From Acidobacteriota bacterium (GTDB lineage: Bacteria > Acidobacteriota > Vicinamibacteria > Vicinamibacterales > UBA823): a stretch of 64,000 bases of DNA. Positions 1,749 through 20,514 of the stretch are shown here, piece by piece. The notes beneath the pieces were generated by a model, which did no database searches, was not told where the DNA came from, and was given only the letters and a program-made list of their open reading frames with translations. The first letter of the stretch is position 1. Every line of letters begins with the position of its first letter. The stretch lies in the NCBI GenBank assembly GCA_002730525.1, contig PCAK01000040.1:1-64000 (forward strand), given 5' to 3'. Made by a program: the position numbers and the translations under genes.

Positions 1749-3377
1749 CTATGGCTCGATGAACAGTTCCTGCCAGATCGTGATCGACTTCTTCCCATCC
1801 CGGTCGCCGGCGCTACCGTTCCACACCGCGAAGCCGACGGCCGTTCGTGATCCAGGTCTGAGCCTCACAGCTTCGTTCTTGCCGGTATCGAGGTCCCGGG
1901 TGAACTGCACGCGATACGATCCGGTCGCGTACTCGCCGGTGGCCGAGACCGCCTGATCGAACGGCGGACGAGCCAGCAAGGTGCCGAATCCCTCGGCGGT
2001 CAGGTCCTCCGCGGCGCTGTTCCGCGTGGGATCCGCGACGATGTTGCCGGCGCCCCAGGCGGTGACGAATCGTGGATCCGATTCCAGGGTCAAGGCGTTG
2101 CGCATCGGCTGCTCGACCGGCGAGCGCAGGAGGTTGGGATAGGAATCGATGCCGATGTTGGGATAGACCTTCTCCAGGTCCTGGAAGGCCGGCTCCAGAT
2201 CGGCCTGACGTTCGGACTTCCACATCCAGATGTTCACGTGGTCACCCAGTTGACCCATGGCGAAGAATGGCGGGTCTTCATTCAGAGCGAACTGAATCGC
2301 CGAGGCATCGCGGAAATCCTGAGGTCGAATGGCCGTGGCATCCTCAGTCGTGTCCGACCAGTTCAACAGCATCGCGACACGTTGGCCGTCATGCACCGCC
2401 TTGACGGTGATCTCCTCGGGCCGTTCCGCACGCCACCAGAGCGGCATGAGATGGAGGCTCACGGCCGGTGAACTCCGCCACACGCCCGAGTCAGGGTGGT
2501 CCGGGAGTTCCGCGACGCGAGTCGCGACGATCCGGAACTTCTTCATCTCCACCTTGGCGCGTTGCTCGTCGCTCGACATCGACCGGACAAGGTGCACGAG
2601 ATGCCATGCGTCGTCACCGTGGAGATACCCACTTTGCGGCATCGGCGAGCCCGGTAGCCCGGCGACCAGGCGGCGGTAGACCTGTTCGGGCGAGGGGTCG
2701 CCCTTGTAGACGCCGAGCGTCAGATCGCGTGGTCGCGTCGGCAAGCCCTTCGAGTCGATCTGCTCCTGCGCGCCGTCGCCCTTCCCGGTCTCACCGTGGC
2801 ACGGTGCACAACCTTTTCCGTAGAGTTCGCGTGCTTGAGCTTCGGCCTCTGGCGTAAATTCCGGCTCGGGTGGAATCGCAATGATGCCTGTGCCGGGGTT
2901 ACCGAACGACGCCGGCTCGGTCGGCTCACTGACCGTGATCGGCCGCTCCAGGAAGGTCTTGACGTAGTGCACCAGCCCCCAGCGGGTTTCTTCAGGCAGA
3001 TGAGCCCACGACGGCATCGCGGACCCTGGCATGCCGCGCGACATCGTCCGGAACAGATCGTCATCGGTAGGGACGCCGTCCCACGTCGAGATCAATCGGA
3101 ATCGTCCTGTCGTGAAATCGCGCGGTCGCGGATAGAGCAGATACGCAGCCTCACCCAATCCGTCGCCGTCTGGTCCGTGGCAGGCGACGCATTCTTTCTC
3201 GTACGTGGTCTCGCCGAGCGCCAGGAGTTCCGGCGAGGTCGACGGGTGTTCGGAAGGTTCCAGGGAAAGGGCGATCACACCCGGGTCGGTGTCGAGTGGT
3301 GGGCCGCAGGCGACCATGAACGAGAGGGCGAAGAGCGCCAGCGAAAGGTGGAGAAGCCGAGTGTGCGCGATTGACAT
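1749..3377 (-). CDS. Lipoprotein fusing a dihaem cytochrome c to an ethylbenzene-dehydrogenase-like haem-b gamma domain
   Basis: 542 aa with an ideal SD (AGGAGG) before ATG 3377. The N-terminus is a lipoprotein signal with Cys24 in MVAC. Two cytochrome-c domains follow: CVACH at 63-67 with downstream MPGSAMP, and CAPCH at 190-194 with LPGSPMP, the methionines being likely distal haem ligands. Residues about 280-540 resemble the EB_dh/NxrC-type gamma subunit (WRSSPAVSLHLMPLWWR, LNWSD, WMWKSERQAD). Known gamma subunits pass electrons between the FeS beta subunit and a separate cytochrome c. Here both functions appear to be in one chain anchored to a membrane. It is first in the operon, ahead of the Mo alpha subunit. 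Confidence 0.85.
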   Translation of the reverse strand: MSIAHTRLLHLSLALFALSFMVACGPPLDTDPGVIALSLEPSEHPSTSPELLALGETTYEKECVACHGPDGDGLGEAAYLLYPRPRDFTTGRFRLISTWDGVPTDDDLFRTMSRGMPGSAMPSWAHLPEETRWGLVHYVKTFLERPITVSEPTEPASFGNPGTGIIAIPPEPEFTPEAEAQARELYGKGCAPCHGETGKGDGAQEQIDSKGLPTRPRDLTLGVYKGDPSPEQVYRRLVAGLPGSPMPQSGYLHGDDAWHLVHLVRSMSSDEQRAKVEMKKFRIVATRVAELPDHPDSGVWRSSPAVSLHLMPLWWRAERPEEITVKAVHDGQRVAMLLNWSDTTEDATAIRPQDFRDASAIQFALNEDPPFFAMGQLGDHVNIWMWKSERQADLEPAFQDLEKVYPNIGIDSYPNLLRSPVEQPMRNALTLESDPRFVTAWGAGNIVADPTRNSAAEDLTAEGFGTLLARPPFDQAVSATGEYATGSYRVQFTRDLDTGKNEAVRLRPGSRTAVGFAVWNGSAGDRDGKKSITIWQELFIEP

Positions 3378-18504: not shown

Positions 18505-18600
18505 GCACCGACTCTCCATGTCTCTCTCGCGCGCGGGAGGCGCCGGGGCGGCGTGATAAACTCCCCGGCTGCGACACCTGACAAGGCAGAGGAGATCGTG

Positions 18601-20514
18601 ATGGGCAAGCCCTACGACCGTTTGACGACGCCGATGGTCCGCGAGAACGGATCGCTGCGGCCGGCGAGCTGGGACGAGGCGCTGGAGCGGGCGGCGACCG
18701 GCCTCAAACAGGTCGTCGACGCGCACGGCGGGTCGGCGGTGGGGATGTTTAGCTGCTCGAAGACGACGAACGAGATGAACTTCATGGCACAGAAGTTCGC
18801 CCGGTCCGTCATCGGCAGCAACAACATCGACAGCTGCAACCGTACGTGACACGCGCCCAGCGTCGTCGGTCTGGCGACGGTCTTGGGCGCGGGTGGCGGC
18901 ACCAGTTCGTACACCGACCTGCACCGTACCGATGTGGTCATCCTGTGGGGCTCCAACGCCCGCGAGACTCACCCGATCTTCTTCCATCATCTGCTCAAGG
19001 CGCTGCACAGTGGCGCGCGGCTCTACGCCGTCGATCCGCGTCGGACCAGTTCAGCCCGGTGGGCCGACGTTTGGTTGGGGCTCGACGTCGGTACCGACAT
19101 CGCGCTGGCCAATGCCGTCGGCCGCGAGATCATCGCCGCGGGGTTGGTCAATCAGGAGTTCGTCGACCAGGCCACGAGCGGGTTCGACGAGTACCGCGCG
19201 GCGGTCGAGCCCTACACACTCGAACGTGCCGAGCGGATCACGGGCGTCCCGCGTGACGCGATCCGCTCTCTGGCCCATGCCTACGCCGGGGCGAAGAGCG
19301 CGCAGCTTTGCTGGACGCTCGGCATCACCGAACACCACAACGCGGTCGACAACGTCCTGGCGCTGATCAATCTCGCGCTGCTGACCGGCCACGTCGGGCG
19401 GCCGGGTTCCGGCATGAATCCGCTGCGCGGCCAGAACAACGTGCAGGGCGGAGGCGACATGGGCGCGCTGCCGAACAAACTGCCGGGATTCCAGGACGTC
19501 GAAGACGACGAGCTGCGGGCGAAGTTCGAGCGCGCGTGGGACTGCACGATTCCGCCGAAGAACGGATGGCACCTGACGCAGATGTTCGAGGCGATGGAGC
19601 GGCGCGATCTGCGTGGGCTCTACGTCATCGGGGAGAACCCCGCACAGTCGGAAGCCGACGCGGACCACACCAATCGCATGCTGCAGGGGCTGGACCACCT
19701 CATCGTGCAAGACATCTTTCTGACCAAGACCGCCGAATTGGCCGATGTCGTGCTACCGGCGGCGGCGGGCTGGGCCGAGGCCGAGGGCACGGTGACGAGC
19801 AGCGAACGACGGGTGCAGCGCGTCCGCAAGGCGCTCGACCCTCCGGGCGAGGCTCGAGACGACGTCGACATCCTGTGCGAGCTGGCGAAACGCTTCGGCC
19901 ACGACTGGGGTCAGCCGGCGGCCGAGGAGATCTGGGACGAGCTGCGCGGCCTGTCGCCGATGCATGGCGGCATGAGCTACGCGCGGCTCGAGGCGCTCGG
20001 CGGCATCCAGTGGCCGTGCCCCGACGAGGATCATCCCGGCAGCACCTATCTGCACGGCCGGCTCTGGAAGCGCCCGATCGAGGGGCGAGTGGCGCCTTTC
20101 TCGGTCGTCGAAGATGTGCCGCCAGCCGACGGACTGACCGACGAGTACCCGGTCCGCCTGACGACTGGGCGCCGGCTGGATTCCTACAACACGGGCGTGC
20201 AGAGCGGCGGCTTCGCCTCACCGATCCGCCGGCCCGAGACGCTCGATATCTGCGAGGCCGACGGCCGGCGGTGGGGCATCGCCGACGGCGAGCGGGTGCG
20301 AGTGCAGTCACGGCGGAGCGCGATCGAGATGACCGTGCGCTACGTCGACAATCTACGGCCCGGCCTGACGTTCACGACCTTTCACTTCCCGGACGAGGTC
20401 GAGACCAACAAGTTGACGAACCCGGCGTGGGACCAGAGATCTGGAACGGCCGAATTCAAGGCCGCGGCGATACGCATCGAGAAGCTCGAGGCGGCGGTCG
20501 GCGTCGGTGGATGA
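18601..20514 (+). CDS. fdhA: Selenocysteine formate dehydrogenase, catalytic half of a split alpha subunit
   Basis: Read as one 638-codon gene with in-frame TGA at 18847-18849 as selenocysteine 83. The flanks NNIDSCNRT-U-HAPSVVGL match the FdhF/FdsA active site, where U or C ligates Mo. The frame continues through FGSNARETHP-type cofactor loops (VVILWGSNARETHPIF), the ENPAQSEAD segment and the C-terminal dinucleotide-binding domain (TTGRRLDSYNTGVQS near residue 520). GAGGAG lies upstream of ATG 18601. The usual N-terminal FeS domains are absent; they are encoded by the gene at 22395. It would oxidise formate to CO2 on a bis-MGD cofactor in the cytoplasm. Function requires SelB and tRNA-Sec encoded elsewhere. 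Confidence 0.93.
18847..18891 (+). promoter_or_regulatory. UGA-Sec codon and bacterial SECIS hairpin
   Basis: Immediately after TGA 18847-18849 the sequence folds into a two-part stem: CGCGCCCA (18852-18859) with TGGGCGCG (18884-18891), and CGTCGTC (18861-18867) with GGCGACG (18873-18879, one G-U pair). The apical loop is GGTCT. The loop GGUC begins 18 nt after the UGA, the spacing I recall for E. coli fdhF, whose SelB-binding loop is also GGUC. This recodes the UGA as selenocysteine. Confidence 0.92.

Follow-up and report, generated by a model that had tools for sequence, protein, structure and literature searches.

How nitrite oxidoreductase (NXR) hands its electrons to the respiratory chain is unsettled, and the solved Kuenenia complex ends at haem b. 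Chains that carry both c-type haem sites and a haem-b domain are already described. Nitrospina gracilis encodes alternative NxrC proteins with one to three haem-c sites and a haem-b domain (PMC3578206), alt_NxrC_2 of N. moscoviensis combines a diheme cytochrome c with a signal peptide and a TM helix (PMC6606698), and Kuenenia has the diheme protein Kustd1709 in its nxr cluster (PMC6423088). The alternative NxrC proteins of Nitrospira and Nitrospina have only been proposed as anchors, and purified Kuenenia NXR holds the separate NxrC only, not the fused Kustd1709 (PMC8387239). The cytochrome c/haem-b fusion is not new but an established kind of protein, known from sequence. An earlier note on the present locus had regarded the fusion as unusual; this stands only in the sense that in none of these described cases is the fusion a demonstrated subunit of a purified enzyme.

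The protein considered here is encoded in the window (the whole stretch of 64,000 nucleotides analysed), which is the start of contig C40 of an acidobacterial genome. Its gene is a single open reading frame with an ATG start at exactly 1749-3377 on the minus strand, with the frame intact. The features of the protein are:

1749..3377, minus strand: candidate fused triheme gamma subunit of 542 aa, with lipoprotein signal, diheme cytochrome c and EB_dh/NxrC haem-b domain
3306..3377, minus strand: predicted signal peptide and lipobox, Cys24 then Gly, from the sequence and from the AC/GC lipobox of most acidobacterial orthologues
2562..3230, minus strand: diheme cytochrome c module, residues 50-272 (6h5l_B, E 6e-38, Z 26.1)
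3177..3191, minus strand: haem c 1 site CVACH, residues 63-67; Cys63, Cys66 and His67 invariant in 42 sequences
3015..3017, minus strand: Met121, predicted distal ligand of haem c 1, invariant in 42 sequences
2796..2810, minus strand: haem c 2 site CAPCH, residues 190-194; Cys190, Cys193 and His194 invariant in 42 sequences
2640..2642, minus strand: Met246, predicted distal ligand of haem c 2, invariant in 42 sequences
1785..2420, minus strand: EB_dh/NxrC haem-b domain, residues 320-531 (PF09459; 7b04_C, E 2e-27)
2256..2258, minus strand: Met374, equivalent by alignment (numbering checked) of the Kuenenia NXR-C haem-b ligand Met155, invariant
1788..1790, minus strand: Lys530, equivalent by alignment (numbering checked) of the Kuenenia NXR-C haem-b ligand Lys305, invariant

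As the earlier note had read, two CxxCH domains and an EB_dh/NxrC-like domain share one chain: Pfam searches recognise two class-I cytochrome c regions (PF13442, 60 bits; PF00034, 54 bits), followed by an EB_dh domain (PF09459, 87 bits against a cut-off of 33). The closest match of the diheme half is Kuenenia Kustc0458 and that of the C-terminal half is Kuenenia NXR-C. With 113 bits against NCBIfam TIGR03477 (curated cut-off 170), the protein falls below the curated type II haem-b subunit subfamily; it has the EB_dh fold and the Met and Lys haem-b ligands of a type II DMSO reductase gamma subunit. Within the genome, the nearest paralogue of the fused protein is a diheme cytochrome 41% identical to its N-terminal half, encoded directly upstream of nosZ, in a denitrification context (locus L002 on contig C43, 1468-3694).

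Since the window starts at a contig end, one might suspect that an assembly or frame artefact has joined separate genes. However, orthologues from many assemblies, at 62-91% identity, span the same three domains in one frame, and this end of C40 shares an exact 99-base overlap with the start of contig C15 (locus L017). Frame error and contig chimera are ruled out on these grounds, and we regard an artefact as having a negligible chance of being the explanation.

Lipid tethering to a membrane is probable, with a reservation that concerns the query itself. Most acidobacterial orthologues have an AC/GC lipobox (LAGC or LSGC, for example), but the lipobox-like FMVAC of the query, which ends at Cys24 with Gly25 next, has a non-canonical Met at -3. 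In a sequence check of the homologues, no lipobox was found in several from Planctomycetota, nor in that of L061. The fused protein lacks a hydrophobic C terminus. By the usual rule, a Gly after the lipobox Cys would not be a signal for retention in the inner membrane.

We then considered the haem ligands. In an alignment of 42 sequences that includes both kinds of fused protein (operon-borne and anammox), invariance is limited to 28 columns, which include the predicted ligands of all three haems. Because these predicted ligands are invariant across the 42 sequences, there is strong evidence that the fused protein would carry three functional haems. An AlphaFold model from the 42-row alignment (pLDDT 84, pTM 0.82) superseded a first one from 15 rows, in which the haem-b pocket was poor (pLDDT 65). 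In the later model, residues 42-269 match the Kustc0458 diheme cytochrome (6h5l_B, Z 26.1) and residues 283-542 match the gamma subunit of ethylbenzene dehydrogenase (EBDH; 2ivf_C, Z 26.2), with Z 25.9 against NXR-C (7b04_C). The model thus fits both folds, the haem ligands being taken from the alignment, and the gamma-subunit identity given in the earlier note is borne out by the EB_dh domain, the ligand equivalents and the fold match.

The gene beside it encodes the catalytic partner, which reaches the contig end:

1..1682, minus strand: NxrA, residues 1-560 of 1163, with Tat-like signal RRLFLQ (7b04_B, E 7e-237), cut by the contig end
1410..1436, minus strand: NxrA motif CSPNDTHAC, residues 83-91, in which Asn86 and Asp87 align with Kuenenia Asn70 and Asp71

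Merging C40 and C15 gives an NxrA of 1163 aa in a stop-free frame. Its N-terminal half (560 residues) matches 7b04_B at E 7e-237 and its C-terminal half at E 0, with PcrA, EBDH and Nar far behind, and a twin-arginine signal (PRRLFLQWMG, read by eye) lies near the N terminus. In Kuenenia NxrA, Asn70 is a substrate residue and Asp71 a ligand of the FS0 iron-sulfur cluster, and EBDH has Ile at the position of Asn70 (PMC8387239). The active-site Asn and the iron-sulfur Asp of the acidobacterial NxrA are in the Kuenenia NXR state, not that of EBDH, and CxPND occurs in NxrA of all loci checked except L110, where the pattern failed to match. NxrB, encoded on C15, is 61% identical to the Kuenenia copy (7b04_A, E 6e-180) and matches Kuenenia NXR far better than its EBDH, PcrA or NarGH counterparts. 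No NarI-like gene is found among the annotated operon genes, and the gamma position is held by the EB_dh protein, which sets the enzyme apart from NarGHI. Judged by sequence, the partner enzyme is a periplasmic NXR of the Nitrospira/anammox type, with nitrite oxidation or nitrate reduction as its predicted activity; synteny followed past position 1 onto C15 supports the partner Mo enzyme of the earlier note and narrows its identity.

The operon runs from the fused gamma gene through nxrA, a gene for a 115-aa protein, nxrB and a TorD/NarJ-type chaperone gene (3' of nxrB on C15) to a gene for a 346-aa protein. The conserved 115-aa protein (L017 1926-2273) is without a Pfam or NCBIfam match; it is present in most acidobacterial and planctomycete nxr operons and was not detected in the anammox loci. 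The 346-aa protein (L017 4434-5474) likewise has no family match, and a homologue lies at the kustd1701 position of the Kuenenia/anammox nxr cluster.

Directly downstream of the operon on C15 (L017 5668-11112) are genes for a 6-hydroxycyclohexenecarbonyl-CoA dehydrogenase (Had) and for a benzoyl-CoA reductase of BcrCBAA type. This setting could point to a hydroxylase of the EBDH type, acting anaerobically on hydrocarbons or aromatic rings and feeding the adjacent benzoyl-CoA reductase. The operon has BcrCBA-type genes on its flanks in L063 too, and in the planctomycete locus L111 its neighbours include distant BcrC/BcrB-like genes. Of 198 genomes, 11 have BcrB homologues (at least 70%), and four of these have the fused nxr gene as well, a co-occurrence above chance (4/10, Fisher p 9e-4, not corrected for kinship). 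On the other hand, bcr genes are absent near most loci, NxrA resembles Kuenenia NxrA over its full length and EbdA only weakly, and Asn86 is conserved where EBDH has Ile. The active-site Asn and the rarity of the bcr linkage lead us to disfavor a hydroxylase, which we consider very improbable.

Within the set of 198 genomes (the source and its relatives), the fused protein is encoded in 10, with 65-91% identity in the others; the genome nearest to the source in this survey is acidobacterial and of the same genus. Named records with the protein are mostly acidobacterial MAGs from groundwater and sediment. Bins assigned to Aromatoleum and Deltaproteobacteria also have single fused-gene loci, perhaps through mis-binning. 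Among planctomycete genomes, 41 of 343 have a full-length match by our count. The nxrA gene is in the same cluster in 19 of the 20 planctomycete loci fetched, nearly always as the immediate neighbour, and most of the loci that reach far enough go on to the 115-aa protein, nxrB and TorD. Gene order varies little (the fused gene is last in L111, and the 346-aa gene lies in between in L110). Other planctomycete fusions of cytochrome c and EB_dh are encoded away from nxrA (L128 8500-9963, L131 8946-10442, L129 5136-6602 and L118 8733-10175), and that of L128 has an anammox-like C-terminal TM helix.

A tree of EB_dh domains resolves three groups: operon-borne fused proteins (86/81), anammox fused proteins (100/100) and separate NxrC (100/99). 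Because of these three groups, function is not simply transferable between them. In an NxrB tree, two fused-gamma planctomycete operons were placed outside the anammox and remaining sequences (88/80 support) with a very long outgroup, and we do not claim this placement.

No second EB_dh protein was found in the 99%-complete genome. Since no other candidate was found, the fused protein probably acts as the gamma subunit and also as the outlet for electrons in a tethered periplasmic NXR, and we consider it likely that it is the gamma subunit of a membrane-tethered enzyme of the Nitrospira/anammox type. The conservation of operon order across acidobacterial and planctomycete loci supports this assignment. 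Against it, anammox nxr clusters encode the same architecture beside a separate NxrC, so that a core role does not follow for the fused protein. Instead, like Kustd1709 or alt_NxrC_2, it could be an alternative gamma of an accessory kind, which would connect NXR to the respiratory chain through transient docking, with NxrAB either lacking a dedicated core gamma or having an unrecognised one. The alt_nxrC_2 transcript of N. moscoviensis, about 4-fold below that of nxrC_2 (PMC6606698), would be in keeping with such a role. However, the lack of any other EB_dh protein, the position of the fused gene directly before nxrA in two phyla and the retention of the haem-b ligands all argue against an accessory role, which we judge rather unlikely.

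On the gamma-subunit reading, NxrA, loaded with the Mo cofactor, would be exported together with NxrB by the Tat system and would dock on the lipoprotein. During nitrite oxidation, electrons would pass from Mo through the iron-sulfur clusters to haem b and on to the two haems c, from which a soluble cytochrome or the aa3 oxidase would take them; in nitrate reduction the same path would be reversed. The fusion would replace the separate NxrC and the separate cytochrome partner of Kuenenia, and the enzyme would be hard-wired to downstream cytochromes, as the earlier note had envisaged. Kuenenia NXR runs in both directions in vitro (PMC8387239). Because of this, the direction in vivo may be either nitrite oxidation or cytochrome-coupled nitrate reduction, and we consider the two about equally probable.

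The genome encodes an aa3-type cytochrome oxidase, a divergent second COX1-like protein that adjoins a diheme c-type protein, and a NosZ-type nitrous oxide reductase. Autotrophy by the CBB cycle was rejected, as the carbon-fixation search, which covered RuBisCO, found none in the genome. Among nitrite reductases, the search covered NirK, with no match above the cut-off, and Cytochrom_C552, with a marginal match in one multiheme protein (24.2 bits including neighbours, against a cut-off of 24.1). This protein is TPR-like and does not resemble NrfA, and it was rejected on these grounds. Elsewhere in the window, a formate dehydrogenase-like frame (18553-20500, plus strand) has an in-frame TGA at CNRTUHAPSV and is probably a selenocysteine enzyme; the frames after it, to about 22.4 kb, look NuoE/NuoF-like. 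Overall, a facultative heterotroph fits the host better than a classical autotrophic nitrite oxidiser.

Operons of this kind, whose only gamma candidate is the fused protein, suggest that NXR can have its cytochrome arm as a built-in outlet, and they offer a small system in which this could be tested. They also place nxrAB in lineages not known to live by nitrite oxidation, which makes either gene, taken by itself, a poor marker for nitrification. More speculatively, there may be a widespread "triheme-gamma" NXR, with the cytochromes built into gamma and no separate NxrC, outside the classical nitrite oxidisers, in Acidobacteriota and in Planctomycetota other than anammox bacteria. Such an enzyme, with a lipid tether in the acidobacterial case, may reduce nitrate in a reaction coupled to cytochrome c during anaerobic catabolism. 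It may also be similar to the form from which the NXR of anammox bacteria and nitrite oxidisers later split gamma. We put this broader proposal forward tentatively, as a possibility less probable than not.

Among known systems, anammox bacteria provide the closest comparison that could be made at sequence level. The planctomycete genome G289 is Kuenenia or a near twin: its NxrB start equals 7b04_A, and its NxrC matches 7b04_C, with Met155 and Lys305 at the positions given in the Kuenenia paper. Its nxr cluster encodes a 535-aa protein with two CxxCH sites, an EB_dh domain and a C-terminal TM helix, which we identify by position as Kustd1709 because cluster order and haem counts agree with those published (kustd1704-1711; PMC6423088). 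Kustd1709 aligns with query residues 11-541 at 28% identity and shares the two CxxCH sites, the EB_dh domain and the Met/Lys ligands. In contrast to the query, it has a C-terminal TM helix and no lipobox, and it is encoded several genes from nxrA in a cluster with a separate NxrC (kustd1704).

The alternative NxrC proteins of Nitrospira and Nitrospina, compared by published description only, likewise combine a signal peptide, haem-c sites and a DMSO-reductase-type gamma domain in one chain and are tied to nitrite oxidation. Like them, the query carries haem-c sites together with a haem-b domain on a single exported chain, but it has neither the accompanying separate NxrC nor the TM anchor of the membrane-bound forms. 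The alternative NxrC proteins are TM-anchored or soluble and their genes are described as lying apart from the NXR genes, whereas the query is a predicted lipoprotein encoded by the first gene of its nxr operon.

Other relatives resemble only one half of the query. NXR-C (Kustd1704, 7b04) has the same haem-b domain, with Met155 and Lys305 corresponding to Met374 and Lys530, and lacks the cytochrome c domains. The EBDH gamma subunit (2ivf_C) shares fold and haem-b ligand type but is stand-alone and soluble and belongs to an enzyme with another substrate. Kustc0458 (6h5l_B) is like the diheme half in fold and sequence, whereas it partners an HAO-like protein and is without a haem-b domain.

In the open-access PMC literature, which the search covered, we found only a passing mention of NXR in Acidobacteriota (UBA890; PMC13335318) and no description of operons with a fused gamma by nxrA and no separate NxrC from Acidobacteriota or non-anammox Planctomycetota. 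Thus, compared with these systems, what may be new, though this is not certain, is the operon type: a lipid-tethered triheme protein as sole gamma candidate, encoded by the first gene of an NXR operon of a kind common to two phyla.
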